64,000 bases of DNA from Prevotella sp. UBA3776 (GTDB lineage Bacteria; Bacteroidota; Bacteroidia; Bacteroidales; Bacteroidaceae), in the NCBI GenBank assembly GCA_002369515.1, contig DFFM01000024.1, positions 9,284-73,283 of the forward strand. Reading direction: 5' to 3'. The notes under the pieces were generated by a model that was not told where the DNA came from, ran no database searches, and saw only the letters and a list, made by a program, of their open reading frames with translations. A program made the position numbers and the translations under genes. The number at the start of each line of letters is the position of its first letter. Position 1 is the first letter of the stretch. This document shows positions 3,629 through 25,458 of the stretch, piece by piece.

Positions 3629-3632
3629 GTTG

Positions 3633-3640: not shown

Positions 3641-3692
3641 AGAAAAAAAACAATACGGCTCATGCTTTTCTTGTTTTTTTTCTTTTGTCCGT

Positions 3693-5029: not shown

Positions 5030-5037
5030 CAAAATTA
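5030..5037 (-). promoter_or_regulatory. -7 promoter box (TAATTTTG) of the HExxH protein gene
   Basis: TAATTTTG on the minus strand fits TAnnTTTG. It lies exactly 26 nt downstream of the extended operator half-site (GGACGATAG), the same geometry as at three other promoters of the locus. The leader to the ATG at 4976 is about 50 nt. No -33 TTG is present at the expected place, as expected for an activator-dependent promoter. Confidence 0.65.
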
Positions 5038-5065
5038 CCATTTCTTCTCTTTTCCGGCTGACACT

Positions 5066-5094
5066 ATCGTCCAAAATGCTGCAAGAATCGTCTA
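5066..5094 (-). promoter_or_regulatory. Tandem operator, copy at the HExxH protein gene
   Basis: The minus strand reads TAGACGATT, 13 nt, then GGACGAT. The two GAC[G/T]AT half-sites are direct repeats 21 bp apart, two helical turns, as expected for an AraC-type dimer. The copy at 6961-6989 is nearly identical, and two related copies lie at 20144-20172 and 20197-20226. Binding by the HTCS at 1-3628 is inferred. Confidence 0.65.
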
Positions 5095-5107
5095 AGGTGC
5101 TTTGTTT

Positions 5108-5530
5108 CTCACACAGAGGAGACAGAGGTACAGAGGTTTTTCCTTCACACAGAATTATTTTTTTATCACGCAGAGGCGCGGAGGATTTTTGAGTACGCTG
5201 AGATTAATTTCTCACACAGAGGAAACAGAGGTACAGAGTTTTTTTTCACGCAGAAGGTTTTTTCACGCAGAGGCGCAGAGGATTTTAGAGTTCAGAGAGG
5301 AATTGTTTTTTTGAGTTCAGAGAGGAATTGTTTTTAGAGTTAAGGAGGATTATAGGGTTGATGGAGTTTTTTTGAGTAAAAGAGGCAAGCGACCGTAGGT
5401 CGCAAACTCTGTACCTCTGTTTCCTCTGTGTGAGAAATTAATCTCAGCGTACTCAAAAATCCTCCGCGCCTCCGCGTGAAAGAAAAAACCTTCCGCGTGA
5501 AAGAAAGCCTCTGTTCCTCTGTGTGAGCTA
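5108..5530. repeat. Inverted-repeat cluster A (ACAGAGG-type dispersed repeats)
   Basis: An array of degenerate units such as CACACAGAGGAAACAGAGG, TCACGCAGAGGCGCGGAGGA and GAGTTCAGAGAGGAATTG in the left arm. The same units appear in reverse complement in the right arm (CCTCTGTTTCCTCTGTGTGAG, CCTCCGCGTGAAAG). The centre holds the perfect palindrome GCGACCGTAGGTCGC (5389-5403). The cluster begins directly after the TAG stop of the CotH-like gene and ends near the operator of the next gene. All ORFs inside are repeat translations, not genes. Cluster B at 7018-7790 is of the same kind. Confidence 0.85.
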
Positions 5531-6895
5531 TTTCATGGGGTATCCATTCACGATATGGTCCATATACACCGCCCTGCTGCTGAGCCACTTCTCCATGCGG
5601 TTGATTTCCGTCTTGGCGTCCTTGCCTATGGGCCATCGGCTGGCGTTGCGCTCCATGGCCTCGCTGGCTGCCTCGGCGTAGCGCTTGGCCTCGGGCCAGA
5701 ACTCTGAGAGTATGCGCGGACGGATGGTTTTCCAGTGGTTTTTCACCTCGCTGACAAACTGGCGGCTCCGCCACATGTCGGTGAAGAAGGAGGGCGTGTA
5801 GGAGTAGTCGCTGATGTGTCGCGCCGGGTCGGTGCCGAGCACCGTCTCGCGGTAGTCGCTGAAGAAGTTGTGTCCTGTGGTCATGTGTGCCCAGTCGAAG
5901 TCGAATCCGGCGTCAAAGTCCCACAGCGGGCCGAAGGTCCACCGGGCATGTTCGCCCTTGTCGCGGAAGAGGAAGATGCTGCGCGGAGCGGCCACCTCCA
6001 CGTTATAGACGAATTCTTGGATGAGCAGATAGTCAATCATCGTGGCCACGTCGCACAGTTGGGCGAGCTTGTCGTAGTCGCTGCTCGCGATGGCATTTTC
6101 CAGTGCAGCCAGCTCTGTGCGGGCATCATCGGTGAGAGTGTTGGGCGAGGCGTAGTCTTCAGCCTCGGGGCACTTCACGCATACGGGCATTCTGTACACC
6201 TCCGACCAGAAGTTGTCCACTGCCCCCGGAGCTTCCGCCGGGCCGTCGTCCACATCGAGCGACAATAGCCAACCCTCGTGCTTGTCGATGTCCACGCGTT
6301 TCTTGCCCTGCTCCACCTGCTCCGTCAGCAGATAGAGCCCCATGTACTCGCCGTTGAGTGTCAGCTCCACATAGCGCGAGTGGTTGGTGAAGGGCATGCC
6401 CAATGCTTCGCCCATGATGAAGACCAGGGTGTTCATCAGGTGCGTCGGGTCGCGATAGTTGGCCAGCAGCACCCAGTCCTTGTCCTCGTCCAGCCCCAGC
6501 ACAGAGGCTTTCTCGTCCAGTTTCAGCCTGTAAGGTTTCTTGGGGTACCATTCCCATGTGGAGTTGCCTCGGCCTCTGATGCGCCCACGCCCCTCGTAGT
6601 TCCAAGCAGTCGTGTCCGCCTCTATTTTGATGGTGCAGGGGCGGTAGTCGGCCTTTTCCTTCGAGTTGACGGCTGCGCCTCCGTCGGTGTTGATGCTCAG
6701 GCGCGCCACGCAGTATTTGGCCTCAAAGGCAGGGGCTGGCGTCACTTGGGGAGTGTCCGTGGTGTCGGTGGTTACGGTTTCGGTAGTGTCGGGTGTTGGC
6801 GATGGTGTTTGCCTGGCTTCCGGCTCGTCGTTCTCCGACGAACAGCCTGCCACCAGCACCGCTGTCAACAGTGCAGCAAATATCTTTTTTCTCAT
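5528..6895 (-). CDS. CotH-kinase-fold lipoprotein
   Basis: A 455-residue lipoprotein with lipobox VAGC followed by SSENDEPE, then a Thr/Pro-rich linker (residues 25-55). The remainder resembles the CotH family: GRIRGRGNSTWEWYPKKPYR near residue 105, NYRDPTHLMNT near 145, GMPFTNHSRYVEL and GEYMGLYLLTEQVE near 175-190, and FGPLWDFDAGFDFDW near 320, the acidic metal-binding motif. CotH of Bacillus phosphorylates spore-coat proteins. In Bacteroidetes glycan loci such lipoproteins are common but their role is unknown. It has its own operator and promoter copied almost base for base from the HExxH gene downstream, so both should be co-regulated. Repeat clusters flank both sides, and cluster A starts immediately after its stop codon. 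Confidence 0.85.
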   Translation of the reverse strand: MRKKIFAALLTAVLVAGCSSENDEPEARQTPSPTPDTTETVTTDTTDTPQVTPAPAFEAKYCVARLSINTDGGAAVNSKEKADYRPCTIKIEADTTAWNYEGRGRIRGRGNSTWEWYPKKPYRLKLDEKASVLGLDEDKDWVLLANYRDPTHLMNTLVFIMGEALGMPFTNHSRYVELTLNGEYMGLYLLTEQVEQGKKRVDIDKHEGWLLSLDVDDGPAEAPGAVDNFWSEVYRMPVCVKCPEAEDYASPNTLTDDARTELAALENAIASSDYDKLAQLCDVATMIDYLLIQEFVYNVEVAAPRSIFLFRDKGEHARWTFGPLWDFDAGFDFDWAHMTTGHNFFSDYRETVLGTDPARHISDYSYTPSFFTDMWRSRQFVSEVKNHWKTIRPRILSEFWPEAKRYAEAASEAMERNASRWPIGKDAKTEINRMEKWLSSRAVYMDHIVNGYPMK

Positions 6896-6924
6896 TTTTT
6901 CCTTTCGTTTCAGGTTAGCCGATG

Positions 6925-6932
6925 CAAAATTA
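6925..6932 (-). promoter_or_regulatory. -7 promoter box (TAATTTTG) of the CotH-like gene
   Basis: TAATTTTG on the minus strand lies 26 nt downstream of the extended half-site GGACGATAG of the operator at 6961-6989. The roughly 70 bp block from -7 box through operator is nearly identical to the one at 5030-5094, so the promoter has been duplicated between the two genes. The leader is about 25 nt. Confidence 0.65.
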
Positions 6933-6960
6933 CCATTTCTTGCCCTTCCCGGCTGACACT

Positions 6961-6989
6961 ATCGTCCAAATTGTTGCAAGAATCGTCTA
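6961..6989 (-). promoter_or_regulatory. Tandem operator, copy at the CotH-like gene
   Basis: The minus strand reads TAGACGATT, 13 nt, then GGACGAT, with half-sites 21 bp apart. It differs from the 5066-5094 copy only inside the spacer. Confidence 0.65.
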
Positions 6990-7017
6990 GGATGCTCTTT
7001 TCAAGGGAGTTTTTCCT

Positions 7018-7790
7018 TGTCTCACACAGAGTTTTTTCTTTCACGCAGAATGTTTTTTCTCACACAGAGGGAACAGAGGTACAGAGTTTTTCTTTCACAC
7101 AGAAATATTTCTTTCACGCAGAGGCGCGGAGGCTTTTAGAGTTCAGAGAGGACTTTTTTTAGAGTTAAGGAGGTTTTTAGAGTTCAGAGAGGACTTTTTT
7201 TAGAGTTAAGGAGGTTTTTAGAGTTCAGAGAGGACTTTTTTTAGAGTTAAGGAGGTCTTTAGAGTTCAGAGAGGACTTGTTTTAGAGTCATGGAGTATTA
7301 TAGAGTTGATGGAGTTTTTTTGAGTTAAAAGAGGCAAGCGACCGTAGGTCGCAAACTCTGTACCTCTGTTTCCTCTGTGTGAGAAAAACTCCTCTCAGAA
7401 CTCAAAATTTCTCCGCGCCTCTGCGTGAAAGAAAAGCCTTCTGCGTGGAAACCTCATTACCTCTGTACCCTCTGTGTGAGAAAATACTCTCTCTGAACTC
7501 AATATTTCTCCGCGCCTCGGCGTGAAAAAGCCTTCAGGATGAAAACCTCTGTACCTCTGTTTCCTCTGTGTGAGAAAAACTCCTCTCAGAACTCAAAATT
7601 TCTCCGCGCCTCCGCGTGAAAAAGCCTTCAGTATGAAAACCTCTGTACCTCTGTTCCCTCTGTGTGAGAAAATACTCTCTCTGAACTCAATATTTCTCCG
7701 CGCCTCCGCGTGAAAGAAAAACCTCTGCGTGAAAGAAAAGCCTTCCGCGTGAAAGAAAAACCTCTGTTCACTCAGTGTGAAACAGATGGG
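7018..7790. repeat. Inverted-repeat cluster B (ACAGAGG-type dispersed repeats)
   Basis: A larger version of cluster A. The left arm carries CACACAGAGGGAACAGAGG-type units and a tandem 40 bp repeat. The centre repeats the palindrome GCGACCGTAGGTCGC (7338-7352). The right arm has about four degenerate units of roughly 110 bp in opposite orientation (CTCCGCGCCTCTGCGTGAAA, CCTCTGTACCCTCTGTGTGAG). Its right end supplies the stop codon of the gene at 7772-8536. Nothing in it resembles a real gene. Confidence 0.85.
7134..7290 (+). repeat. 40 bp tandem repeat inside cluster B
   Basis: A 40 bp unit made of a GAGTTCAGAGAGGACT part, a T-tract and an AGAGTTAAGGAGG part, present about 3.5 times with few changes. 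The last unit diverges (CATGGAGTATTATAGAG). The near-identity indicates recent tandem expansion. Confidence 0.8.
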
Positions 7791-8536
7791 GTGCCGCACC
7801 ATTCATGAAAGTAAGCAACGAAGATGAGACTACCCGTATTGGCGTCGATGACAATATGGCTTACGTCAGCGCGCTTCATGCTACGCCCACTATAGCAGAG
7901 ACGGGGACGCCAATGCCCTCCCTTTGGGTAGAATGCAATATAGCATTCATCATTAATCTGTGAATCCAAATCATCGACCTTGGCACCCAAATACATGGCC
8001 ATTTTCTCCTTGGCCTTGTCAGGTGTCAGCGCTGGCGTGACATTGAAGTCCTTTACTGGTTGGCATGAGCCTTCCATGCGCAGCATCTTGCCACTCTTGT
8101 CGTACCACAATGTGCATGAGCCTGCAACATAGACACCTTTATATAATGGATTATACACTTCCATACGCCCTCTCTGTCCATGCGTCTTGAAAGGTATTGC
8201 CCAATCATCCCTGCTGGCAGCGCTCTTGCGAAACTGATAGTCACTGTCGTAATTCAGCATGCTGAAAAACTCTTCCCCGCTGGCAGGAGGCGTCTTGTCG
8301 TTACGACTCTCAAAGTCAACCATCGTCAGTTCCTCATCATAGACGATGGCCGGCCATCCGGCTATATCCACCTCCTTCTTCCTTTCTGCTTTTTGCTTGT
8401 AAGCCTCATCCATTTCAGCCTCTGTAAACTCAGGATGCAGTTCTGGGGCTACGATTGTCTCGTCATCGCTGTCTGAGCATGCCACTGCCAGCATGCAGAT
8501 CATCAGCGATAGTACCTTCCAAAAAATTCTTCTCAT
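7772..8536 (-). CDS. Lipoprotein resembling a peptidase propeptide (FTP/PepSY-like), possibly truncated
   Basis: A 254-residue lipoprotein with lipobox AVAC and an acidic N-terminus. The middle (about residues 125-165: GVYVAGSCTLWYDKSGKM and GSCQPVKDF) resembles the FTP domain of thermolysin propeptides. The stretch from TPDKAKEKMAMYLG to DANTGSLIF resembles a PepSY domain. No mature peptidase follows: the frame ends 12 residues later, with the TGA stop inside the first unit of repeat cluster B. It may be a protease gene cut by the repeats, or a free-standing inhibitor or chaperone for a neighbouring peptidase. The gene looks less GC-rich than its neighbours, hinting at a different origin. 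No locus operator was found upstream. Confidence 0.6.
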   Translation of the reverse strand: MRRIFWKVLSLMICMLAVACSDSDDETIVAPELHPEFTEAEMDEAYKQKAERKKEVDIAGWPAIVYDEELTMVDFESRNDKTPPASGEEFFSMLNYDSDYQFRKSAASRDDWAIPFKTHGQRGRMEVYNPLYKGVYVAGSCTLWYDKSGKMLRMEGSCQPVKDFNVTPALTPDKAKEKMAMYLGAKVDDLDSQINDECYIAFYPKGGHWRPRLCYSGRSMKRADVSHIVIDANTGSLIFVAYFHEWCGTPSVSH

Positions 8537-8870
8537 TTTTTTCTGACTTTGTTCTTTAATTCAAGTTTCGTTATCGCTCAACTTTTCGTCGTTCAAGGAG
8601 TTCAAGGAGTTTCAAGGAGTTCAAGGAGTTCAAGACTATAGCTTTATTCCTGTAATCCATTTCGGAAAGTTGAAAAAGTGAAGACTATTGTCTTGAACTC
8701 CTTGAACTCCTTGAAACTTCTTGTTTACTTGACTGTCAATATAGTAAATGCAGAGACAGTGAAAAACTTGCAATGACAGGAAACTATTTAAGCTTTTTTA
8801 AGGCTCAACAGGGGCGGACACCGATGTGCCCGCCCCCGTACTATTAACAAAATTAACCTAAAAAACAGGG
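8537..8870. repeat. Intergenic region with TTCAAGGAG repeats forming a long stem
   Basis: Holds tandem TTCAAGGAG units at 8592-8636 and reverse-complement units at 8690-8717. Bases 8609-8636 pair perfectly with 8690-8717 (28 bp stem, 53 nt loop). A second GC-rich hairpin (GGGGCGG ... CCGCCCC) sits near 8811-8837, just past the stop of the gene at 8871. These may end or attenuate the SusCD operon transcript. No convincing promoter for the gene at 7772-8536 was found. Confidence 0.7.
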
Positions 8871-11132
8871 TCAGAACTGCATGTTCAGCGTGATGACAGC
8901 CTTGTACTGCTTGCCGCCCTTGGTATAGACCAGCACGGGCTTCACCACGTATTTGGTTCCAGCAGTGGTCTTGCCGGGATAGTGGCCGTAGGTGAGCACG
9001 AAGTTGTCCTTGTCGTACTCCATCCATATCGGGTCACCATTGTTCCATGAGCCCTGACGGCCGTCGGCTGTGCAGTAGAATCCGGCATTGGCCGTGTAGG
9101 AGTAGCTGATGGTGCCGTCGGGCTGCTGCAGTCCGAAGGCAATCTTTCCCTCGGCGGGCTCGGCCGTCTGTCCGTTGCTGATGGGCAGTGTGCTGCCTGC
9201 CAGCGTGGCGGGTTGCAGTGCGAAGGCCTGTGCAATCTTCTCCAGTGCGCCGTTGTTGGCCAGGTCGAGTGTGCCGATGACATACTCGCTGAACGCGGCG
9301 TCGCACTTCAGGTCGTAGCTCAGGCTGACGTTCTGCGGCTCGGCATCGGTGTCGATGTTGATGTGTCCGCTCACGTTGGTGCCTGCGAAGCTCACCTCGT
9401 AGGGCCACTGCTCGTCGTCGCTTTCGTCGTCGTTCCACGCATGACGGTTGTAGGTGTCGGGCGTGGCAACCACCACCAGGTAGAGCTTGTCCGTTCCGAC
9501 AGGCACCGTCATCACGGCGTCGCCCTCGGCGCCCTTCGTCATCTTGCCATACTCTATGGCCTTGCCATTCTTGATGGCCACGAAGCCAAAGCGGTAGTTG
9601 GCCGACTTGTTCGACTGCGAGTTATACTTGTGGGCGGTGCCCACCACCTGGTTGTCGCCATTCTTCATCTCGCCCGGATCGTCGGGAGCCAGGCCAGAGC
9701 CAACGGGCAGTGCCTTGAGCGAAGCCTTCACGATGGTGCCGCCATCGGGCACGTTCAGCTGTATGGCGTTGAAGCCCGTGGTGCCGGGACAGTTGGCATA
9801 CGAGGGGCGGAACTTGCCATCCACCTCGAACATCTGCGTCTTGAAGGCCTTGGCGTTGTCGTCGGCATATTTCTGAATGTCGCCGAAGTCGTAGGTGAGC
9901 ACCTTCTGGGCGTATTCGGCATAGTCGTCGTAGAACTTCTGCAGGTCGCCCCCGCAATAGAGGCGCGTGTAGGTCTGCAGCGGGTCCTCGGGGAACTTCG
10001 ACTCGTTCCAGATGCGGCCGTACGACTTCACGCCGTGCTTCTGGGTGAAGTAGAACTGGAAATAGACTGAACCATAGCGCATCCACTCGTGGTTGAAATG
10101 GCGGTGGAAATTCTGCTGCCAGGCATAGAAACTGTCAGAGAACGTCACTTCGGGATAGTCCTGGAACGACTGCCACTGGGCGCACTGCTCCCAATAGGCG
10201 CAGCCGCCGGCACCGTTGGCGCCAAATCCGTAGCGGAAGCCGCAGTCCATGCCGTAGTTGGTCTCGTTGCCCTCGCCGGTGAGCAGTTTGTCGCAGCTCA
10301 CCTGATACTGGAACGAGTGGCCAATCTCATGGGCAATGACCGAACCCACGGGCTTGCACGTGGAGGGAGTCACCCAGAGGGCGCCAATCACGTTGTCGTA
10401 GCCCGAGCCGGTGGCCACCCACCATTCGGGAGTGGGGTCGAGCAGATAGATTTCCATCTTGTACTTGTCGAGTTGGCTCTTGCCCTGGCCCGTCACCACC
10501 ATGCCCAGTCGGGTGATGTTGGTCTCGTAGAAGTGCTCAGCCTTCTGCAGCAGGTCATCTACATCCACGCGGTCGTCCTCCTTCAGGTTGGTGCTGTTGG
10601 GGTCGTCGCCGAAGTAGGCGTCCCAGAACACGAAGAAGTGCTCGCTCTGCTTGGAGCGGAACCACGACCACTTGGCGTCACTGCGCAGCATGTCGATGTT
10701 GGCAAACTCGGCGGGCTTGTAGTATTTGTCGAAGTCCTTCACCTGGCTCTTGTCCATCACTTCGATGGTGCTCGGAGCCTGCGTCACCTTCAGAAAGGTG
10801 CTGGCCGTGCCGCAGCTCACCTTGATGTTGGCCACGCGGGGGCTCTTGGTGGTGTTACGGGTCATCTCGAACGAGAGCTTCTCGCTCGTTCCGCCCACGC
10901 CCTTGCCGTCCTTCAGTGTCAGCCATTCGCTGCCACTCTCAACGGTTGCCGACCATACGGCGCGCGCACTCACGGTAAGGCTATACCATGTGGCGTCGTA
11001 GTCCACGTTGACCTCGCTTTCCGAGAGCACGGGAGCCGACGAGGCCGGTTCGTCGTTGTCGCTGCTGCTGCAAGCTGCGAACAATGTCGCAGCGAGCAGC
11101 AGAACAAGCGATTTGATGCAATTTCTTGTCAT
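8871..11132 (-). CDS. BACON - HExxH (DUF6055-like) - DUF4859-like lipoprotein, putative metallopeptidase
   Basis: A 753-residue lipoprotein (lipobox FAAC, then SSSDNDEP). Residues 30-120 look like a BACON domain (VWSATVESGSEWLTL; KVTQAPS), a module common in Bacteroidetes surface glycan proteins. Residues 135-480 are homologous to the HExxH protein at 3693-4976 and carry VIAHEIGHSFQYQ near residue 275. The last 75 residues (NADGRQGSWNNG region, YGHYPGK) match the repeat found three times in the neighbouring protein at 11161-12675, probably DUF4859. It lies 28 bp after that gene in the SusCD operon. A surface-anchored peptidase or binding protein acting on a protein-linked glycan is plausible; activity is inferred from the motif only. 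One reservation is that catalytic use of the HExxH motif is unproven for this family. Confidence 0.75.
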   Translation of the reverse strand: MTRNCIKSLVLLLAATLFAACSSSDNDEPASSAPVLSESEVNVDYDATWYSLTVSARAVWSATVESGSEWLTLKDGKGVGGTSEKLSFEMTRNTTKSPRVANIKVSCGTASTFLKVTQAPSTIEVMDKSQVKDFDKYYKPAEFANIDMLRSDAKWSWFRSKQSEHFFVFWDAYFGDDPNSTNLKEDDRVDVDDLLQKAEHFYETNITRLGMVVTGQGKSQLDKYKMEIYLLDPTPEWWVATGSGYDNVIGALWVTPSTCKPVGSVIAHEIGHSFQYQVSCDKLLTGEGNETNYGMDCGFRYGFGANGAGGCAYWEQCAQWQSFQDYPEVTFSDSFYAWQQNFHRHFNHEWMRYGSVYFQFYFTQKHGVKSYGRIWNESKFPEDPLQTYTRLYCGGDLQKFYDDYAEYAQKVLTYDFGDIQKYADDNAKAFKTQMFEVDGKFRPSYANCPGTTGFNAIQLNVPDGGTIVKASLKALPVGSGLAPDDPGEMKNGDNQVVGTAHKYNSQSNKSANYRFGFVAIKNGKAIEYGKMTKGAEGDAVMTVPVGTDKLYLVVVATPDTYNRHAWNDDESDDEQWPYEVSFAGTNVSGHINIDTDAEPQNVSLSYDLKCDAAFSEYVIGTLDLANNGALEKIAQAFALQPATLAGSTLPISNGQTAEPAEGKIAFGLQQPDGTISYSYTANAGFYCTADGRQGSWNNGDPIWMEYDKDNFVLTYGHYPGKTTAGTKYVVKPVLVYTKGGKQYKAVITLNMQF

Positions 11133-11160
11133 GTCTTATTCTTTTGGTTGACAGTCAGCG

Positions 11161-12675
11161 TTATCGTTGGCCCTTCGCAGCAGCGGCGCCAGTGATGTCG
11201 ATGGTCACGTTGAAGGTGGCGGTGATGCCGTCCTTCTCCACAATCATCTTCGTCTTGATGGTCTGCCCTGCGGGGTTGCAGTTCTCAGGATGGTTGCCCG
11301 AGTAGAAGGCCAGGCTCTCCTCAGAGATGCCGAGGTTCAGATAGGCGATGGCCTCCTCGCCCCAGCTGACGGCCTGGCCGTCGGCACCGAGCCAGTAGCC
11401 GGGAGCGTCGGCCGTGTATTGCGGCAGCCCGTCCTCACCGGCGTTCTTGCCAATCTCCTCGCACCACATCTTCATCTCGCCGCTCTTCAGCGCCTTGAAA
11501 ATCTGATAGGTGGTCATCTTGAAGCACTGGCGCAGGTCTTCCTTCACGTCGAATTCGTCGGTTGCACCCCAGTCGGCATCCCATACCTTGGTCAGCGTGA
11601 ACTCCTTCTCGATGGATTGGGGCGTTCCCTCGGGAGCGGTCTCAGGATCCTCGTAGCCCACGATGTTGACGGTGATGACGTTCTCCACAATCTTGTTGTC
11701 GTACATCGCGCTGAAGTTGATGGTGACGCTCATGCCCTCAGTCATCTGTCCGGGCATCTGACCAATCCAGATCTGACCCTCTTGGAAGGTGGCGAATACG
11801 CTGGCATTGTCGCCCCATGCACCAGAGAAGCCCTCCTTGTCGTACCAGAAGCCAGGTGCGTCAGCACTGTACTCCTGAGCATACGAGCCGTCAGCGTTGG
11901 TAGCCACCCAAGCCACGTCGGCCCAAGAGCCTGCGCCCAGAGCAGCCAGGGCAGCATCGGCATCAAAGCCTTCTACGGATACGGTAGCATAGGTGTCGTT
12001 GGGAGCAGTCTCAACGGTCAGCTTGTTGGAAGCCACCACGGTAGCCTTCACCTCACCACGTTCACGACCAATGGCTGTGATGACAATGGCCACACGCTTG
12101 TCCTGATACTTCAGGGCCTCGATGAACTTCACCTGCTGGTCGGCTACCAGATGACCGGGATACTGGCCTACGTGGAAGATACCCTCGCCATCCTCGGTAT
12201 ATTCGAATTCAGCGAAGACCATGGCCTCGTCGCCCCAGTTCTTCACGTTGCCGTCCTTGTCCCACCAGTGGCCCCAGTAGGCGCCAGAGTTAGAGGAGGT
12301 CATGTTGTCGGCATGGGTTGAGCCTTCGATGGCAAATCCTGTCACGTCGGCACCACCTTCTCCATTAAGGGCCTTGCCCAGCTCATCTTTCGAGAGTCCC
12401 AGCTCGCTGGCAATCTTGTCCATATCAATTTTCACCTCGCCACCATCATAGGAATTGGCGCTGAGATAGAACTCCACGGTGTATTCCAGAATCAGGTCGG
12501 CATCAATGCGTTCGCGCTGAGCCTGCTTGATGGAGTCCTGACGGGCCATCTCTGCAATCTCGTCGTCTGTCAGGGTGTGAGGCCCCCAGAAATCTGTATT
12601 GTCTCCGCAGCTGCAGAAAATGGCAGAAGAGCCGGCAATCAGCAGTACGCTAAGAATATATGATAACTTTTTCAT
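11161..12675 (-). CDS. Surface lipoprotein with three DUF4859-like repeats (SusE-position glycan-binding candidate)
   Basis: A 504-residue lipoprotein (lipobox FCSC, then GDNTDFWGP). Three repeats of about 130 residues each contain a Trp/Gly-rich core: YWGHWWDKDGNVKNWGD, FWYDKEGFSGAWGDNASVF and YWLGADGQAVSWGEEAI, each followed by GQYPGH, GQMPGQ or SGNHPEN. I assign this to the DUF4859 family with moderate confidence. It directly follows SusD (42 bp gap) and so occupies the position of the SusE/SusF-type surface glycan-binding proteins, for which the conserved aromatic residues would suit ligand stacking. The function is inferred from position. The same repeat recurs once at the C-terminus of the next gene. 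Confidence 0.7.
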   Translation of the reverse strand: MKKLSYILSVLLIAGSSAIFCSCGDNTDFWGPHTLTDDEIAEMARQDSIKQAQRERIDADLILEYTVEFYLSANSYDGGEVKIDMDKIASELGLSKDELGKALNGEGGADVTGFAIEGSTHADNMTSSNSGAYWGHWWDKDGNVKNWGDEAMVFAEFEYTEDGEGIFHVGQYPGHLVADQQVKFIEALKYQDKRVAIVITAIGRERGEVKATVVASNKLTVETAPNDTYATVSVEGFDADAALAALGAGSWADVAWVATNADGSYAQEYSADAPGFWYDKEGFSGAWGDNASVFATFQEGQIWIGQMPGQMTEGMSVTINFSAMYDNKIVENVITVNIVGYEDPETAPEGTPQSIEKEFTLTKVWDADWGATDEFDVKEDLRQCFKMTTYQIFKALKSGEMKMWCEEIGKNAGEDGLPQYTADAPGYWLGADGQAVSWGEEAIAYLNLGISEESLAFYSGNHPENCNPAGQTIKTKMIVEKDGITATFNVTIDITGAAAAKGQR

Positions 12676-12716
12676 ATCTATAAACTATAAACTGTAAACT
12701 ATAAACTATAAACTGA

Positions 12717-14435
12717 TTAGTATCCCGGGTTCTGCTTCAGCGAGATGTTGGCCTTCATGGCCTCGTCGGGGATAGAGAAGATGTCGTAAGTGGTGCTGGT
12801 GGTGGCATCCTTGCAGAACCACGACTTACCGTTCCATACACTGCGGCCATCTGCCATCTTGAAGCGGAGCAGGTCCTGGCGGCGGTGCATCTCACAGCAG
12901 AACTCCCAGCCGAGGTCGTCGAGCAGACCGCCCAGTTCGATGTCGGCACCGCCCTCAAAGGTTGTGATGTGGTTGCTCCAGTCAGTGTAGCCGGCAGTAG
13001 CGTCGGCAGCGACCACATATTCATCGTGACCATACTGATAGACTGAGCCACCCTCAAGGTCGGCCACGGTACGGGTAGCCTTCGCTACATTGGAACCAAA
13101 GCTGCGCTGACGTACTTGAGTAACGAGCTGGGCTGCAGTCTCCTTGTCACGGCCCAGACGCAACAGACACTCTGCCTTCATCATCAGCGCATCAGCATAA
13201 CGGAAGATGGCCACATCATCAGATGTCGTGCCGTCGTTGGTTCCGCCCACGATCTCATACTTGTGCAGACGATAGCCCTCCTGCTGGTAGGCACCGGGGT
13301 TGTCGATCGAGTGTACGTTCATATTGTAGGTCAGGATGCCCGTACCTGTCCAGTCGTCGGCCTCGAACATGATGGGATTCTCCTTGTCGCTGTTGGGGAT
13401 ATAGGTATCACCCTGCTTCGTGGCGTGATACTGCGGACCACCGGCCCAGGTGTCAGCCAGACGCTGGTCGGCTTCGTCGTAGGTGCGGATCCACTGCGGA
13501 ATGGCGCAACTGCCGTTATAGCCGGCAGCGGTAGAGCCGTAGGCCTCGATACCCGACTGCGGGAAGCAGTAACTCTGCAGACCGAACTGTACGGTGTGGG
13601 TACGGTCGCCGGGAATCACAAAGATAATCTCGGGGTTACCCGTGAGATCCTCCTTGAAGCACTCCTTATAGGTGGGAGCGAGGCTGTACTTGCCAGAGGC
13701 GATGATGCTCTCCACCTCGGCCAGACATTTTTCGTAGCCGTCGTTATCATTGGTGCCGAGATAGACGTTCTTGTTCAGATAGAGTTTGGCGAGGGCCATT
13801 GAACAGGCGTACTTGTTGCCGTATCCATAGATGTCGTCGTCACCGATGCCAGCCTTGGCCTCTGTGAACTCCGTAACGAGGAAGTTGTACATCTCCTCGG
13901 GGCTCACCTGCTGCGGCAGATAACCAGACTCCACTTCCTGAGTGGTCTGAAGCGGGACGTTGCGGAACATGTCGAAGAGGTGATAGTAGAACATGGCACG
14001 GAAGAAACGGGCGTGGGCCAGACTCTTCTGTGTAGAGGGGTTTGCAGGGTCGATGGCATCAATCACCTTGTTTGCATAGCCGATGCCACGATAGGCGATG
14101 TCCCAGGGATTCTGGATCTGACCGACAGAGGGTCCCCAGTTGTGCTTGTGCAGGTTGATATAGGCATCGCCCCAGCCCACACCGACACGGGCGGGCACCA
14201 TATACTGGTCTGTCGATTCCTCGAGCAGGTGATACATGCCGAACCAGTCCTCCACCAAATAGCGGTATTGTGCGGTGGCGGCACCGAGCAGCAGAGAGAG
14301 GTCGGTCTCGTTGGAGAGGTCGATGTTGGTCTCGTTGAGGCGGTCGTAAAGCGTCTCGTCGAGATTCGTACAGGATGAAAGGCTGATGCTTCCTGCTGCA
14401 ATGGCAATCAGTACCTTGTTGAATATCTTTTTCAT
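12717..14435 (-). CDS. SusD/RagB-family outer-membrane glycan-binding lipoprotein
   Basis: A 572-residue lipoprotein (lipobox SLSSC, then TNLDETLYDRL) that caps the SusC transporter and binds the substrate at the cell surface. Family hallmarks are the N-terminal helical repeats (ARFFRAMFYYHLFDMFRNVP near residue 145, the typical FLRA-YF-L motif), DVAIFRYADALMMKAECLLRLG near 405 and the C-terminal FCCEMHRRQDLLRFKMADGRSVW (E-RR-DL-RF). The length fits the family. It is 15 bp downstream of susC and in the same operon. Confidence 0.95.
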   Translation of the reverse strand: MKKIFNKVLIAIAAGSISLSSCTNLDETLYDRLNETNIDLSNETDLSLLLGAATAQYRYLVEDWFGMYHLLEESTDQYMVPARVGVGWGDAYINLHKHNWGPSVGQIQNPWDIAYRGIGYANKVIDAIDPANPSTQKSLAHARFFRAMFYYHLFDMFRNVPLQTTQEVESGYLPQQVSPEEMYNFLVTEFTEAKAGIGDDDIYGYGNKYACSMALAKLYLNKNVYLGTNDNDGYEKCLAEVESIIASGKYSLAPTYKECFKEDLTGNPEIIFVIPGDRTHTVQFGLQSYCFPQSGIEAYGSTAAGYNGSCAIPQWIRTYDEADQRLADTWAGGPQYHATKQGDTYIPNSDKENPIMFEADDWTGTGILTYNMNVHSIDNPGAYQQEGYRLHKYEIVGGTNDGTTSDDVAIFRYADALMMKAECLLRLGRDKETAAQLVTQVRQRSFGSNVAKATRTVADLEGGSVYQYGHDEYVVAADATAGYTDWSNHITTFEGGADIELGGLLDDLGWEFCCEMHRRQDLLRFKMADGRSVWNGKSWFCKDATTSTTYDIFSIPDEAMKANISLKQNPGY

Positions 14436-14450
14436 ATTGCTGTCTCGTTT

Positions 14451-17400
14451 TTAGAAGTTAAGTGAAAGACCGATGGTGTAGTTGCGCGTGACGGGGTACT
14501 TGTCACGATCGTCGATACCAGGAGCGAGGAAGTAGTTGCTTACCTCGGGGTCGATGCCGCTGTAGCCAGTGATACAGAAGAGGTTGGTGGCATTGGCATA
14601 GATGCGGGCCTTCTTCACGTAGTTGCCCAACGTGCCCTTCGGGGTGAAGGTGTAGCCCAGCGTCAGGTTGGTGAGTTTCAGGAAATCACCGTTCTCCAGA
14701 TGGTCGCTCCACCAACCCTGCTGCATGGCGCTGGCCAGTGTGACCATCTTCTGCTGACCTGTCTCGGGATCGATATAGGGTGTACCGTCGGTATTGATGG
14801 CGGGATGCAGGTCGGCAGCGCTCTTCAGACGGTTGTAGGCTATCGAGTTGTTCTCGTAGAAGGCACGCGAGGCGTTCAATATCTTGTAGCCGAGTTGGCT
14901 TGTGAACTGCATCGAGAGGTCGAAGTCCTTGTAGCGGAAGGTGTTGCCCCAGCCCAAGATGACTTTCGGGGTACCGCTACCTAAGCGCTGACGGTTCTCC
15001 TTGACATTCAGGTTCGGGTTGAACTGCTTCACGGTCCAGCCGCCGTTACCGTCGCTGGCTTCCACGAGGGCGAAGCCGTCCTTGTCGTAGCCCACGAACT
15101 TCAGTCCCCAGAAGTCGCCGAGAGCCGTGCCGACCTCCATGCAGTGGGTCGAAGTGCTGATAGGATCGCTCAGGCCACCCTCTTCCTGGAAGTTATCTGT
15201 CTCGTAGAGATCATTGCTCAGCGAAAGCAGTTTGTTGGAGTTGTGAGAGGCGGTGAGGGTGGTGGTCCACTCGAAGTCCTTTGTCTGTACGGGGATGGCC
15301 TCGATCATGAACTCCACACCGACGTTACGCATCTTACCCACATTGGCCAGAGTCTGGTTCCACATGTTTGGCGGCATGGGTACGCGGTACCAGTAGAGCA
15401 GATCCTTAGTGGTCTTGACATATACATCCAGTGAACCATGGATGCGGTTGTTCAGCACACCGTAGTCAAGACCGAAGTTCCACTCCTGGGTGGTCTCCCA
15501 CTTCAGGTCGGGGTTGGGGTTCTGTACCACCTCGAGGGTCTTGATCCACTTGTTGTTCATTGAGAGTACATCGCCATAGTCGGCAAAGTTGTAGAGGGTC
15601 TGTGCCAGATAAGAACTTCCCGGTGTGATACCCGTGACACCGAAGCCTACGCGGAGACGCAGGTTGTCGAGCCACGAGCGGGTGCCCTTCATAAACTCCT
15701 CGTTCATGATGTTCCAACCGAGAGAGACAGAGGGGAAGGTGGCCCACTTGTGATTGTCACCAAACTTGGAAGAACCCTCATGACGGATACTGACGAGTGC
15801 ATTGTACTTATCGGCATAGCCGTAACTGATACGTCCGAAGAAACCAATCAGTTTGTTGTCGTTCTGGTAACTGCCCATCCAGGCATGATTGTCCTTGTCT
15901 GTTAGGAATGAACCGTTGCCAAGGTTGTTCCACAGGAAGGCGGTGGTGGAGAAGTCCTGGTTGCCGGCATTGAAACCGTCTTCCTGGTTATATAGGTAAC
16001 TATAACCCACGAGGGCGTTGAAGCGGTGGTCGCCCCACTGTGTGTCGTAGCGTGAGGTCAGTTCCAAGTTCTTGCTGACGCTGGTGCCTTCGCTCTTCGA
16101 GGCAGCACCGTTCCAACCCTGGCGCACGAGCGACTGGTGCAGCGGCGATGTCCAGTTCTCTCCTGTGTTGGCATGCTCGCCCCAAGAAATCATGAGGTTG
16201 GTCTTCCAGCCAGTAATGGGTTCGAGCGTGACGTTACCAGTGAGTTGTGAGTAGCGGATGCGGGTATCGCCCCAGGCCTCGTTCTGCAGGGCCACGGGAT
16301 TGTAGTACTGCAGTTTGTTGAAGTTCTCATAGTAACTGCCGTCTTCATTGTAGATAGGCTCCGAGGGATTGTGTATCAGGGCCTGACGGTAGGCATTCTC
16401 GTGAGAATAGGTGTTCAGGTTGTCGTTAGAATACTTCTGACGGGTCACCAGTGCATTGACATTGAACTTCAGCACGTCGTTCCACATATACTGTGTGTAG
16501 TCCATCTGGAGTTTGAAGTTCTCGTTGAAAGTCTTGCGGATGATACCGTCTTCTCTTGCGTAAGAGATATTAGCCGAATAGGTGGCATTCTTCGTACCGC
16601 CGCTGATGTTCAGGTCGTGGTTGTGCTTGAAGCCTGCTTTGCGGGTGATGGCCTTCAGCCAGTCGGTGTCGTAACCGAGATAATCCTGCTGGGTCTTGCC
16701 GTAGATGACATCGTGGGTGTCCATGAATTTAGCCTTCTTGGCCCATGTGGAGAAAGATGCATAGCCATTATAACTGACACTGGCAGCCGTATCGCGCTTG
16801 CCGGTCTTGGTGGTGATGATGATCACACCGTTAGCACCGCGCGTACCATAGATAGCGGCTGCAGAGGCATCCTTCAGCACGTCGATAGAGGCGATGTTCT
16901 CGGCAGCCACTGTAGTCAGGTTGCCCTCGATACCGTCAATCAGAATGAGCGGGGTCAGGTCGCCTTCGAGTGTCGTGATACCACGCAGACGGATGGAAGA
17001 GGTTGCCTTCGGGTCACCGCTTGAGTTGATAACCGTCAGACCGGCAATCTTACCTTTCACCAGTTCGGCGGCATCGCCAATCTTACCTGCGTTGAAGTCC
17101 TCAGCCTTCACAGAGGCCACAGCAGAGGTGACGTCGCCCTTGCGCTGGGTGCCGTAACCGATGACGACGACCTCGTTCAGGAGGGCATTGTCTTCCTGGA
17201 GGGTCACGTTGCTACCGGCTTTCACCTCTTGGGTGGTGAATCCGATGTAGCTCACCACGAGCGTGGCGTTGCGGCTCTTTACCTTGAGAGAATAGTTACC
17301 GTCGAAGTCGGTAACCGTTGCATTTTGGGTGCCTTTCTCGGTCACGGTGGCGCCAATGATGGGTTCGCCTTTCGCATCCTTTACAACACCCGACACAGAG

Positions 17401-17525
17401 ACGCCCTGCTGAGTGACCTCCTGGGCGGCTGGTGATGTGCTCTCTGCGGCATCAGGCTCGGGGACTGCAAATCCCCTCAAGCCAAATGCGGCCAGCAGAA
17501 GCAAGCATAGAAAATGTTTCTTCAT
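14451..17525 (-). CDS. SusC/RagA-family TonB-linked outer-membrane transporter
   Basis: A 1,024-residue TonB-dependent transporter importing oligosaccharides across the outer membrane. A signal peptide (residues 1-20) is followed by an Ala/Glu-rich stretch and a carboxypeptidase-regulatory-like domain (GVVKDAKGEPIIGATVTEKG, near 45-115). The plug domain contains LLNEVVVIGYGTQRKGDVTS and the signature DVLKDASAAAIYGTRGANGV near residue 225, and a large beta-barrel ends in the aromatic terminus GLSLNF. It is preceded by the GH127 gene with a 47 bp gap, so transcription is likely driven from the promoter at 20108-20115. It pairs with SusD downstream. Confidence 0.97.
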   Translation of the reverse strand: MKKHFLCLLLLAAFGLRGFAVPEPDAAESTSPAAQEVTQQGVSVSGVVKDAKGEPIIGATVTEKGTQNATVTDFDGNYSLKVKSRNATLVVSYIGFTTQEVKAGSNVTLQEDNALLNEVVVIGYGTQRKGDVTSAVASVKAEDFNAGKIGDAAELVKGKIAGLTVINSSGDPKATSSIRLRGITTLEGDLTPLILIDGIEGNLTTVAAENIASIDVLKDASAAAIYGTRGANGVIIITTKTGKRDTAASVSYNGYASFSTWAKKAKFMDTHDVIYGKTQQDYLGYDTDWLKAITRKAGFKHNHDLNISGGTKNATYSANISYAREDGIIRKTFNENFKLQMDYTQYMWNDVLKFNVNALVTRQKYSNDNLNTYSHENAYRQALIHNPSEPIYNEDGSYYENFNKLQYYNPVALQNEAWGDTRIRYSQLTGNVTLEPITGWKTNLMISWGEHANTGENWTSPLHQSLVRQGWNGAASKSEGTSVSKNLELTSRYDTQWGDHRFNALVGYSYLYNQEDGFNAGNQDFSTTAFLWNNLGNGSFLTDKDNHAWMGSYQNDNKLIGFFGRISYGYADKYNALVSIRHEGSSKFGDNHKWATFPSVSLGWNIMNEEFMKGTRSWLDNLRLRVGFGVTGITPGSSYLAQTLYNFADYGDVLSMNNKWIKTLEVVQNPNPDLKWETTQEWNFGLDYGVLNNRIHGSLDVYVKTTKDLLYWYRVPMPPNMWNQTLANVGKMRNVGVEFMIEAIPVQTKDFEWTTTLTASHNSNKLLSLSNDLYETDNFQEEGGLSDPISTSTHCMEVGTALGDFWGLKFVGYDKDGFALVEASDGNGGWTVKQFNPNLNVKENRQRLGSGTPKVILGWGNTFRYKDFDLSMQFTSQLGYKILNASRAFYENNSIAYNRLKSAADLHPAINTDGTPYIDPETGQQKMVTLASAMQQGWWSDHLENGDFLKLTNLTLGYTFTPKGTLGNYVKKARIYANATNLFCITGYSGIDPEVSNYFLAPGIDDRDKYPVTRNYTIGLSLNF

Positions 17526-17572
17526 ACCAAGTTTTGTTTTTAGGTTTGTTGTTATTAGAATTTAAATTGAAG

Positions 17573-20053
17573 TTATTTGTTTACTTTCCATTCGAGTACT
17601 CCGCCCGACTCGCCCTTCTGGAGCTTGGCCAGGATTTTCAGGCCTGTGGTCTTCACCGGGGCGAAATCGACGCTGTTGTAGCAGTCCTTGCGCACGGTGT
17701 AGGGGCTGTGGTCGGCCACTTCCTGCCACTCGCCCTGGGCGTCCTTGTAGTAGAGGGTCCACGACTCGGGGGTGCGGAAGTTGCCGTCGTAGTGGTCGAA
17801 GTCGAGCCAATAGACCTGCACGTTCGACACCTCGTACTCCTGGTCGAACTGATAGGTGATGGCCTCGGTGGTGCCCTGCTTCAGCCACCAGTAGTGGTAG
17901 GGCTTCGAGGTGTCGCTGCTGCGACGGGGCTCCCACTGGTCGTTGGTGCCGCCGGCCCAGGAATCGACGGGGGCCGTTTCGGGGGCGTCGTTCTGGATGG
18001 GGCCGCGGTTGCAGAAGGTCTGTGCCTTCGAGGCGATGGTTGGCAGCGGGGTGGCTACGGCCTTGGCGGGCGTGTTGGCAATCCACACCTCCATCTGTTC
18101 GCCTCCTCGGTTGTTCCAGGTGGAGTAGGGGATGGCGTGGAACTTCACGTCCTTCACTTCGCCGTCGGGCTGGAGCTGTTTGGCCGAGCCTTCGAGCACC
18201 ACCACACCACTGAGGAGCTGCGGCTCGAAGTGGGCAGTCACAGGGGCGCTGTCGAGGATGTACTTGTTGAACACGTGGTGGTCGGGCTGGTCGGGGCCTT
18301 CGAGACAGAACACCACGGGGCCGCGCTCCAAGGCCACCTTGCCGCGGTCGTCCTCAGCATTGTCGTTGGCCACGATGCGGCGCACGTCCATGGGGAAGTC
18401 AAGCTCGATGGTGTCGCCCTTCTTCCAGCTGCGCTGGATGGTGAGGTAGCCGTTGGATTGCATATTCGCCGTAACAGCCCGTCCGTTCACGCTGACGCTG
18501 TAGGCGCGTGCCTTGTCCTGATAGGTGTAGAGATTGTTGTTGGTGGGCGAAGTCTTCAGCCACGAGGGGATGCGCAGTTTGATGGCGAACTTGCCGCCGC
18601 CCTTGGCCACGCGGATGCTGATTTTGCCGTTCCAGGGATAGTCGGTGGTCTGCTCCAGTTCGGTGTTGCCAATCTTGGCCTTGCCCTGGGCGTAGAGGTT
18701 CACGAAGATGTCCTTGCCCTGACGGGCGTAGATGTAGCCTGGCACGGAGGCCACGAACCGCGTGATGTTGCCCGGGCAGCAGGCGCAGCCGAACCACTTC
18801 TGGCGCTCGTGCTCGCCGTCGCTCTCCAGCGGGTTGTCGTAGAAGAACTTGTCGCCCGAGAGCGAGACGCCGCTCAACACATTATTATATAACGCGCGCT
18901 CGCACACGTCGATGTACTTCGACTCGCCCGTGGCCAGGAACATGCGGTAGTTCCAATAGACGTTGGCGATGGCGGCACAGGTCTCGCAGTAGGCCGTGTG
19001 GTTGTTCAGCTCGTAGTTGGGGCCGAAGCCTTCGCCCTGCGGACGGCTTCCGATGCCGCCCGTGATGAAGAGTTTCTTCGACGACATGTTCTCCCAGATG
19101 CGCTCCAGGGCCTCCTGATAAGCCTTGTCGCCCATGAGTGAAGCCACGTCGGCAACGCCCGAATAGAGATAGCCGGCACGCACGGCGTGGCCCACAATCT
19201 CGTCCTGACGGAGGATGGGCATGTGGTCCTGCGAATACTCGCTGGGCTTGTGGCCGTCGGTGCAGCGGCCCGTCTCCTCGACGAAGTAGCGGGCCCCCTC
19301 GAGATAGCGCTTGTTGCCCGTCACCTTGTAGAGCTTGCAGAGGGCCATCTCGATGATGGGGTGGCCGCCCGGACGGTGGATCTGTCCCTCGCCAGGGCCG
19401 AAGGTGCGGCAGACGAGGTCGGCGTTCTTGATGGCCACGTTGAGGAAGGTCTTCTTGCCCGTGGCACGATAGTGGGCCACGGCACTCTCGATGAGGTGGC
19501 CTGAGTTGTAGAGTTCGTGCGAGTTGATTTTCTCCCACTTGTGGGTGCCCCACCATCCGCTCAGGCGCGTACATTTATTGGTGACGCAGGTGGTCAGGTA
19601 GCCGTCGGGCTCCTGGGCCATGGCGATGATGTTGATTACGGAGTCGAGATAGTGGTCGAGCTTGGCGTCGTAGTGGACGGCCAGCGAGTAGCTGGCCCCC
19701 TCGATCACCTTGTAGGGGTCGGTGTCGTCGAACGAGAAGTCGCCGCGGTGCTCGAGCGATGCCGGCACATTGGCAATGTTGCCATTGTTTTTGGCGGCGA
19801 GCAAGAAATTGTCGAACCGTCCGTTGGCTTCGCACTCGCGAAAGGCGGAGGGAATGCTGACCGTGCGGTTTATTTCTATGCGGGGTGCCCAGAAACCATC
19901 GTTGAGGTGTACCTCGGTGAAGGGCACTTCCTGGATGGTGGCGGCAGACTGCTTTTTCTTGCCGGCGGATGTCTGTCCGTTGGTTGCTGCTCCGAGGGGA
20001 GTGCAAAGGGCAAATGTCATCAAACCTATCAAAAAGATTGCGCTATGTTTCAT
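17573..20053 (-). CDS. GH127-family beta-L-arabinofuranosidase-like glycoside hydrolase
   Basis: An 826-residue exported enzyme with a signal peptide of about 23 residues. The catalytic domain is of the GH127 (formerly DUF1680) type. The metal/nucleophile residues known in this family are visible: AYCETCA near residue 355 (Glu and Cys of E-x-C) and WFGCACCPGN near 415, where the paired Cys provide the nucleophile and zinc ligands. The C-terminal 200 residues form a beta-sandwich module ending GVLEWKVNK. The plus-strand paralogue at 25459-27891 shares the whole architecture. As first gene of the SusCD operon it is read from the operator-bearing promoter at 20108-20172. Family members release beta-L-arabinofuranose, for example from extensin-type Hyp-arabinosides; related families have other activities. 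Confidence 0.85.
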   Translation of the reverse strand: MKHSAIFLIGLMTFALCTPLGAATNGQTSAGKKKQSAATIQEVPFTEVHLNDGFWAPRIEINRTVSIPSAFRECEANGRFDNFLLAAKNNGNIANVPASLEHRGDFSFDDTDPYKVIEGASYSLAVHYDAKLDHYLDSVINIIAMAQEPDGYLTTCVTNKCTRLSGWWGTHKWEKINSHELYNSGHLIESAVAHYRATGKKTFLNVAIKNADLVCRTFGPGEGQIHRPGGHPIIEMALCKLYKVTGNKRYLEGARYFVEETGRCTDGHKPSEYSQDHMPILRQDEIVGHAVRAGYLYSGVADVASLMGDKAYQEALERIWENMSSKKLFITGGIGSRPQGEGFGPNYELNNHTAYCETCAAIANVYWNYRMFLATGESKYIDVCERALYNNVLSGVSLSGDKFFYDNPLESDGEHERQKWFGCACCPGNITRFVASVPGYIYARQGKDIFVNLYAQGKAKIGNTELEQTTDYPWNGKISIRVAKGGGKFAIKLRIPSWLKTSPTNNNLYTYQDKARAYSVSVNGRAVTANMQSNGYLTIQRSWKKGDTIELDFPMDVRRIVANDNAEDDRGKVALERGPVVFCLEGPDQPDHHVFNKYILDSAPVTAHFEPQLLSGVVVLEGSAKQLQPDGEVKDVKFHAIPYSTWNNRGGEQMEVWIANTPAKAVATPLPTIASKAQTFCNRGPIQNDAPETAPVDSWAGGTNDQWEPRRSSDTSKPYHYWWLKQGTTEAITYQFDQEYEVSNVQVYWLDFDHYDGNFRTPESWTLYYKDAQGEWQEVADHSPYTVRKDCYNSVDFAPVKTTGLKILAKLQKGESGGVLEWKVNK

Positions 20054-20107
20054 CGATATGAGGTGAAGTTTTATGGTTAGTATTCAGGTTTATCATAGTT
20101 TCAGCCG

Positions 20108-20115
20108 CAAATTAA
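20108..20115 (-). promoter_or_regulatory. Candidate -7 box (TTAATTTG) of the GH127-SusCD operon
   Basis: The minus-strand octamer TTAATTTG deviates at one base from TAnnTTTG. It lies exactly 26 nt downstream of the extended half-site GGACTATTT of the operator at 20144-20172, the spacing kept at the other three locus promoters. Confidence 0.5.
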
Positions 20116-20143
20116 CAAAGAAATATAGAAAAGACGTGAAAAA

Positions 20144-20172
20144 ATAGTCCAAGAAAATGGCAAAATAGTCTA
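20144..20172 (-). promoter_or_regulatory. Tandem operator facing the GH127-SusCD operon
   Basis: The minus strand reads TAGACTATT, 13 nt, then GGACTAT, with direct half-sites 21 bp apart. It is the mirror-oriented partner of the site at 20197-20226. Confidence 0.65.
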
Positions 20173-20196
20173 AAAGGGCTGTCCGATAGGCAAATA

Positions 20197-20226
20197 TAGA
20201 CTATTTTGTCAGACACTTTGGACTAT
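20197..20226 (+). promoter_or_regulatory. Tandem operator facing the GH97-GH43-GH127 operon
   Basis: The plus strand reads TAGACTATT, 14 nt, then GGACTAT, with half-sites 22 bp apart (one base longer than the other three copies). The -7 box at 20255 follows 26 nt after the extended half-site. Confidence 0.65.
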
Positions 20227-20254
20227 ATTTCCATCGTCATTGCAGAAAAAGAAC

Positions 20255-20262
20255 TATCTTTG
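20255..20262 (+). promoter_or_regulatory. -7 promoter box (TATCTTTG) of the GH97 operon
   Basis: TATCTTTG is a full match to TAnnTTTG. Transcription would begin near 20268 and leave a leader of about 370 nt before the GTG start at 20639, filled with the hairpin repeats listed separately. Confidence 0.7.
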
Positions 20263-22621: not shown

Positions 22622-22624
22622 GAT

Positions 22625-25423: not shown

Positions 25424-25458
25424 AAAAAAATGAATCAACAACTAAATAACAAAAACAA

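Follow-up and report, generated by a model that had tools for sequence, protein, structure and literature searches.

Four tandem sites (S1–S4) in a stretch of DNA from Prevotella sp. UBA3776 are very probably the operators of a membrane-bound hybrid two-component system (HTCS) that is encoded beside them, and this regulator would switch on the four promoters at which the sites lie. The stretch, referred to below as the window, comprises 64,000 nucleotides (contig DFFM01000024.1 of assembly GCA_002369515.1, positions 9,284 to 73,283 of the forward strand; position 1 is its first letter). An earlier note on this DNA had proposed a single regulon with the neighbouring HTCS as its likely activator. 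The proposal was supported by the ranking of the four sites with a matrix built from other species and by the co-occurrence of the site with orthologs of the HTCS.

Oriented by transcription, all four sites read TAGAC[G/T]ATT, a spacer and GGAC[G/T]AT, and they were present where the earlier note had placed them: S1 (minus strand, 5094 to 5066), S2 (minus, 6989 to 6961), S3 (minus, 20172 to 20144) and S4 (plus, 20197 to 20226). Counted from GAC to GAC, the half-sites were 21 bp apart in S1, S2 and S3 and 22 bp apart in S4, the same values as had been given before. The half-site TRGACKATW occurred nine times in the window, eight times as one of the halves of S1–S4, while shuffled sequences gave a mean of 1.4 and a maximum of 4 occurrences.

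At S1, the first half-site (TAGACGATTCTTGCAG, 5079..5094) and the second half-site (TGGACGATAGTGTCAG, 5058..5073) are followed on the minus strand by the −7 box TAATTTTG (5030..5037). The same box, TAATTTTG, is found at S2 (6925..6932, minus), with the first half-site at 6974..6989 and the second at 6953..6968. The half-sites of S3 lie at 20157..20172 and 20136..20151 (minus), ahead of the −7-like box TTAATTTG (20108..20115), and those of S4 at 20197..20212 and 20219..20234 (plus), ahead of the box TATCTTTG (20255..20262).

The −7 consensus TAnnTTTG was matched exactly in S1, S2 and S4 and nearly in S3. From the end of GGACKAT to the start of the box, 28 nt were counted in S1, S2 and S4, and also in S3 if its box is read as TTAATTTG; the seven-letter TAATTTG at S3 lies at 29 nt instead. 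The exact 26 nt claimed earlier for this interval is right when counted from the longer half-site, with the S3 box imperfect. In relatives, promoters on the side of the gene GH127a carry TTATTTTG or TTACTTTG at the same offset.

The genome of the organism, as available (2,400,140 bases, 66.7% complete), was scanned with the pattern TAGACKATTN{10,16}GGACKAT. Four exact matches were obtained, all of them S1–S4, against none for the reversed control, and relaxing K to N still returned only these four. The full-genome scan called for earlier, for which many unrelated matches would have been damaging, thus gave zero unrelated targets in the available genome. With up to three mismatches, the 21-bp and 22-bp patterns added two and three hits, respectively, all with three mismatches; the reversed controls gave three each, which is background. 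Further regulon members in this genome were accordingly rejected, the additional hits being no more frequent than the controls. A rigid pattern of half-sites plus box, likewise at three mismatches, yielded 11 hits against 4 in controls and was set aside as mostly noise. Across 99 congeneric genomes, the exact pattern matched six times in four genomes (reversed control, five), and a single one of the six matches had the 21–22 bp spacing.

Relatives of the HTCS were collected by searching genome contigs, and the loci of the best 80 of 260 relatives were used. Seventy-three of them were counted as orthologous (best segment at least 45% identical; some partial) and seven as distant (L099, L101, L102, L104, L106, L107 and L108). 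The conserved neighbours, found in varying subsets, were GH127a, SusC, SusD, DUF4859, DUF6055b, CotH, DUF6055a, GH43 and the HTCS. All ten exact TRGACKATW pairs lying 9–60 bp apart in the 80 loci were spaced by 21 bp (nine) or 22 bp (one), and 18 of 22 pairs fell at 20–22 bp when one mismatch was allowed.

The half-site proved to extend over about 16 bp. Among 22 sites, which include the four of the window, positions outside the search letters were also constrained: +10 was T in all 22 in both halves, +14 was A in 21 and 20 of them in the two halves, and +13 was mostly C or T. A matrix derived from 18 non-window sites at the HTCS loci of other species placed the window sites at the top at spacings of 14–31, with 42.7 bits for S2, 42.4 for S1, 38.6 for S3 and 30.7 for S4; two other window rows, at spacing 31 (27.0 and 20.7 bits), reuse half-sites of S1–S4. 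A site of at least 16 bits was detected in 25 of the 73 ortholog loci, some of them weak (17–23 bits). These sites precede CotH, DUF6055a, GH97, GH127a, GH127b, SusC, the HTCS itself or genes matching no window protein. The direct repeat of about 21 bp upstream of operons of a polysaccharide utilization locus (PUL) and its conservation at orthologous regulator loci are both features of HTCS operators.

The letter variants GACGAT (S1 and S2) and GACTAT (S3 and S4) were considered as marks of two regulators. This was rejected because both variants are mixed within single sites of relatives (e.g., L048, plus strand, 5662; L117, plus strand, 1557).

The distance between operator and −7 box was similarly constant. 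At the ortholog loci, the start of TAnnTTTG relative to the T of the second half-site was 36 in 14 and 37 in 2 of 19 boxes. A wider set contained 80 distinct sites from 50 sources: 34 came from the loci of the ortholog search and 4 from the window, and the remainder from loci retrieved either by the pattern or as neighbours of HTCS orthologs, some of which belong to the same species as loci of the ortholog search, with exact duplicates removed and no site selected by box or pairing. Here the offset was 36 in 33 cases, 37 in two, 35 in one and elsewhere in eight. When scores below 28 bits and copies more than 75% alike were dropped, 48 non-redundant sites remained, three of them from the window; TTTG stood in the 36 frame in 31, and at any other offset in at most five.

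TAnnTTTG is the consensus of the Bacteroidota primary promoter (sigma-ABfr), as described in PMC7366714. The −33 TTTG/TTG element of that promoter was absent at S1–S4, in agreement with the earlier statement that no clear −33 TTG is present; by eye, no TTG was found 16–25 nt ahead of any of the four boxes. The element was also rare among the 31 boxed non-redundant sites, in which TTG at spacers of 16–25 occurred nine times in all, only one of these being at spacer 18 and one at spacer 20. Its absence fits dependence on an activator. The second half-site, at about −48 to −33, would occupy the place of the missing element, a position suited to an activator that touches RNA polymerase.

The HTCS gene (1..3703, minus strand) runs past the window; the whole open reading frame (ORF), at L013:8985-12986, encodes 1333 aa, and an in-frame ATG at 3628 yields a signal-like start, MKKRLLLL. 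Pfam matches above the curated cut-offs were Reg_prop, Y_Y_Y, HisKA, HATPase_c, Response_reg and HTH_18, so that a propeller sensor, HisKA, HATPase, receiver and AraC-type helix-turn-helix (HTH) are joined in one chain, as in hybrid two-component systems. Hydropathy indicated hydrophobic segments at 30–48 and 786–804. The receiver carries the SHIP motif, which has been linked to phosphorylation-controlled DNA binding (2024, PMC11253607). In the orthologs both HTH recognition helices are nearly constant, whereas four distant but well-aligning HTCSs (L099, L102, L104 and L106) have clearly different helices and no site row.

Co-occurrence of site and regulator was determined in 200 congeneric genomes, an ortholog being defined by E 1e-200 or better together with at least 45% identity. 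The HTCS was matched at this E-value in 41 genomes, 34 of which reached the identity threshold; the seven others, at 33–37% identity, were not counted. The 21-bp pattern with at most one mismatch was found in 29 of the 200 genomes, and the reversed control gave 9 hits. With the own genome excluded, such a site was present in 19 of 33 genomes with an ortholog and in 9 of 166 without. For the exact site (14 of 199 genomes in total) the corresponding numbers were 13 of 33 and 1 of 166, with a Fisher p of about 9e-11 that is overstated, as the genomes are related.

Several observations weigh against this assignment. No site was found in 48 of the 73 ortholog loci, although in some the operon start falls outside the DNA covered. 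Loci of Bacteroides and Phocaeicola had weak sites (L068, 20–30 bits; L071, 27.7 bits) or none was found, and 17 of the 48 non-redundant sites lacked TTTG in the 36 frame. Among the 33 ortholog genomes, 14 had no site at up to one mismatch and 20 no exact site, for which divergence, other spacings and incomplete genomes may be responsible. Conversely, a site at up to one mismatch occurred in the nine genomes without an ortholog. This number is close to chance, since the reversed control also gave nine in 200; the sites of four of these genomes look real, namely G049 (site in a back-to-back pair), G097, G157 and G196, where assembly gaps may lie behind the missing ortholog. Finally, a different factor linked to the locus would co-occur with the sites just as the HTCS does.

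Such a factor, a one-component AraC protein or a different HTCS to which the neighbouring HTCS would be incidental, is nevertheless highly improbable. Related HTCSs can share similar motifs (PMC3878776), and the nine genomes with a site and no ortholog at 45% identity or above would be in keeping with it. However, 13 of the 14 other genomes with an exact site hold the ortholog of the neighbouring HTCS, the distant HTCSs with different recognition helices have no site row, and a Pfam scan of 28 distinct proteins, covering part of the ORFs in the window and in the DNA to its left, brought up no other transcription regulator. A role of the HTCS as repressor or dual regulator at the same operators, where derepression would be the switch, is also very unlikely. 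A precedent is BT2391, an HTCS whose contact motif deviates and which represses its PUL (2024, PMC11253607), but in its SHIP motif the HTCS described here follows the consensus. Moreover, basal activity should be low at promoters lacking the −33 TTG, and the −7 box is not covered by the operator, which is located upstream of it.

Next to no weight can be given to the view that the sites are alike just because one promoter segment was duplicated to several places in the locus, and are not regulated together. Over 85 bp that include the boxes, S1 and S2 share 86% identity, and dispersed repeats flank both, as copying would predict. In contrast, a search with the S1 promoter recovered S2 and missed S3 and S4, whose agreement with S1 and S2 is limited to the half-sites and the box, and other species retain the site within dissimilar flanks.

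On the preferred reading, with the HTCS as activator, the switch might operate as follows. The periplasmic sensor would bind a glycan fragment, upon which the HTCS would be phosphorylated and would place an AraC-type domain on each of the two 16-bp half-sites, which lie two turns apart on the same face of the DNA. The promoter-proximal half-site would stand in for the −33 element, and the HTCS would recruit or position RNA polymerase at the lone −7 box. The targets turned on would be the SusCD–GH127 operon, the GH97–GH43–GH127 operon, CotH, and DUF6055 together with the HTCS gene itself. Two such complexes would be seated back to back, a fixed distance apart, where S3 and S4 diverge.

In the window, the first T's of S3 and S4 are 25 nt apart, and the gap between the two operators measures 24 nt (20173..20196). 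All minus/plus site pairs within 120 nt were listed, which gave 24 rows from 18 loci, the window included. In 17 of the 18 loci the nearest opposed half-sites were separated by 24 or 25 nt, and in L066 by 13 nt; the six remaining rows (46 and 67 nt) are due to extra tandem half-sites of L112, L125, L127 and L141. As a separate observation, the back-to-back promoters of these four loci carry three tandem half-sites in steps of 21–22 bp. Both sides had TTTG in the 36 frame in 15 loci, and just one side had it in L068, L078 and L135. The box-aligned operators were 24–25 nt apart in 12 of the 15 (window included), 13 nt in L066 and 46 nt in L112 and L125, where an extra half-site occupies the 25-nt position. 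From one spacing class to the next (13, 24–25 and 46 nt), the step is roughly one and then two turns of the helix.

The length of the gap is conserved and its sequence is not: over 136 comparisons, mean identity of the central gap between pairs was 0.35, and shuffled letters gave 0.33. In relatives, by contrast, start codons stood at distances of 33 to 286 nt (longest-ORF rule). By gene labels, eight pairs lie between GH127a and GH97, and at L081, L094, L125, L131 and L137 one or both of the flanking genes are different. The 22-bp spacing was found on the GH97 side in L048, L110, L112, L121, L125, L127 (gene labelled GH43) and L141, and the 21-bp spacing in L066, L095 and L117; from this distribution, the 22-bp spacing of S4 looks inherited.

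Retention of the gap length while the sequence drifts suggests a physical constraint across both operators. It is possible, if rather doubtful, that S3 and S4 form one composite operator on which two membrane-tethered HTCS dimers are in contact, so that the transport and enzyme operons fire together. Its layout, with the same reserve, would be four half-sites in mirror order, spaced by 21, then 24–25 nt back to back, then 21–22. A plainer explanation for the constant gap is descent with few indels. A motif-free search for mirror-symmetric arrangements of four half-sites in 73 divergent intergenic regions returned this operator family in six of its seven top rows, which scored 60–70 against 51 for the best shuffled sequence; the seventh (L154, gap 6) lies outside the family. 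This search gave no convincing second family, and the gaps of its six rows ranged from 20 to 42, so that the 24–25 nt spacing is left unconfirmed by it.

The gene contents behind the four sites agreed by Pfam with those proposed earlier, namely a SusCD operon, an enzyme operon, a CotH-like gene and an HExxH gene. On the minus strand, S1 is followed by DUF6055a (3693..4976; PF19527, HELGH at 162) and then by the HTCS gene, which makes autoregulation probable from the gene order, and S2 by the CotH-like gene (5528..6895; PF08757). The operon behind S3 (8871..20053, minus), predicted from strand and spacing, comprises GH127a (17573-20053), SusC (14451-17525), SusD (12717-14435), three DUF4859 domains (11161-12675) and DUF6055b (8871-11132). 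The operon behind S4 (20639..29869, plus) contains GH97 of the α-galactosidase type (20639-22621), GH43 (22625-25423), GH127b (25459-27891) and, presumably as a further member, GH13 (27983-29869). With a SusC/SusD pair, glycoside hydrolases and a sensor-regulator, the locus has the make-up of a PUL.

The best match of GH97 was the retaining α-galactosidase 3a24, with 600.7 bits compared with about 118 for SusB. GH127a and GH127b matched solved β-L-arabinofuranosidases; the best match of both was 6ex6, titled six-hairpin glycosidase (661.7 and 1025.5 bits, respectively). Both DUF6055 proteins contain HExxH. The predicted model of DUF6055a (pLDDT 84.8) was matched to metallopeptidases of the M1 and M60 types with E-values of 3e-6 to 8e-4 and TM-scores of just 0.32–0.36, a weak resemblance that is no more than suggestive of a gluzincin metallopeptidase. 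A DUF6055 protein from a fungus, its active site complete, has been assigned to metallopeptidase family M106 (PMC11241649). Among the relatives, the first gene behind the site in L118 encodes an M61 peptidase, and in L114 a short lipoprotein of unclear family with a sub-threshold Pfam match; neither an M61 peptidase nor an L114-like lipoprotein was found among the Pfam-scanned window proteins.

Extensin bears Ser-linked α-galactose. β-L-arabinofuranosides are constituents of extensin, arabinogalactan proteins, arabinan and RG-II (PMC10850190). Arabinosidases, an α-galactosidase and putative peptidases under one switch would fit plant hydroxyproline-rich glycoproteins. Judged from the gene content, such arabinosylated and galactosylated glycoproteins, or a related β-L-arabinoside, may be the substrate, although this assignment is tentative.

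AraC/XylS-family activators possess two HTH motifs per monomer and bind tandem direct-repeat half-sites, the proximal one abutting the −35 element. The present case differs from these in two respects: the regulator forms one chain with a membrane-bound sensor kinase, and its promoters belong to the TAnnTTTG class of Bacteroidota. The operator type itself is already known, because direct repeats of 21 bp are the published HTCS type: for B. thetaiotaomicron, Ravcheev et al. (2013, PMC3878776) predicted motifs for 16 of 36 HTCSs, all of them direct repeats with an average distance of 21 bp. Those regulons likewise involve an AraC-type HTCS adjoining susC/susD and a two-site direct repeat. The half-sites given there as examples have 12, 14 or 16 bp, HTCS_Man being represented by two 16-bp sites with a 5-bp spacer, and binding of a dimer on one DNA face was proposed. 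That work covers Bacteroides, and its main text is without the words "Prevotella", "divergent" and "transcription start". The present sites are well supported as a new regulon of a known HTCS-operator kind, likened to those motifs by type, in a host that the nearest orthologs of the HTCS indicate to be of Prevotella type.

REC-HTH fragments of BT4124 and BT4663 bind the bt4114 and bt4662 susCD promoters in gel shift under control of phosphorylation (PMC11253607). These regulators share the SHIP motif with the HTCS described here and differ in identity and substrates; site geometry was not met in the consulted text of that account. In the open-licence PubMed Central (PMC) literature, among the matches listed, nothing nearer than Ravcheev et al. 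was found for HTCS site geometry, no text, as far as consulted, mentioned that the −7 distance is constant or that back-to-back operators keep a fixed spacing, and none of the titles found for GH127, GH97 and extensin named such a PUL. In the same literature no paper was found for HTCS, extensin and Prevotella together, and PMC11241649 alone for DUF4859/DUF6055. PMC12125979 was discarded as a precedent for site geometry, as it concerns a one-component XylR-like regulator of Vibrio.

What is added here is the HTCS gene behind S1, the constant TTTG frame and the conserved arrangement of the divergent pair. A sharp operator is now available for a group of orthologous HTCSs that is present in many genomes of the Prevotella type and is tied to conserved, little-studied genes (DUF6055, DUF4859 and CotH) and to β-L-arabinoside breakdown. 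The promoter geometry is precise enough for spacing mutants, and the fixed spacing at divergent promoters suggests that two membrane-bound regulators touch each other on DNA.

The 86% identity of S1 and S2 implies duplication of one promoter; therefore, three independent cases are available and not four. The earlier note had mentioned neither this duplication, nor the HTCS gene downstream of the HExxH gene at S1, nor the conserved spacing of S3 and S4. In several relatives (e.g., L039, L042, L045 and L077) CotH, DUF6055a and the HTCS are consecutive with few bases between them, and the site precedes CotH in L032, L049, L089 and L105. Because of this arrangement, S1 seems to be the younger of the two, a copy of S2 that would have arrived with repeat DNA.

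A dispersed repeat family (cacacagagg...gtacagag plus a 94-bp unit) surrounds S1 and S2 at 5100-5540 and 6990-7770, and short copies of it are also present on contigs C24, C38 and C47. The leader of S4, from box to GH97 ORF (20264-20592), consists of two tandem copies of a 106-bp palindromic repeat and of 22-bp repeats. The palindromic repeat is scattered in the genome (54 alignments, many representing both strands of one copy). The RNA fold of the leader reached −176 kcal/mol, compared with a shuffle mean of −95, and the GH97 start codon lies 420 nt past the second half-site of S4, compared with 33–70 nt in relatives. Further along the window, the gliding/type IX secretion genes gldN, gldM, gldL and porP/sprF are located at 39306-45574 on the minus strand.

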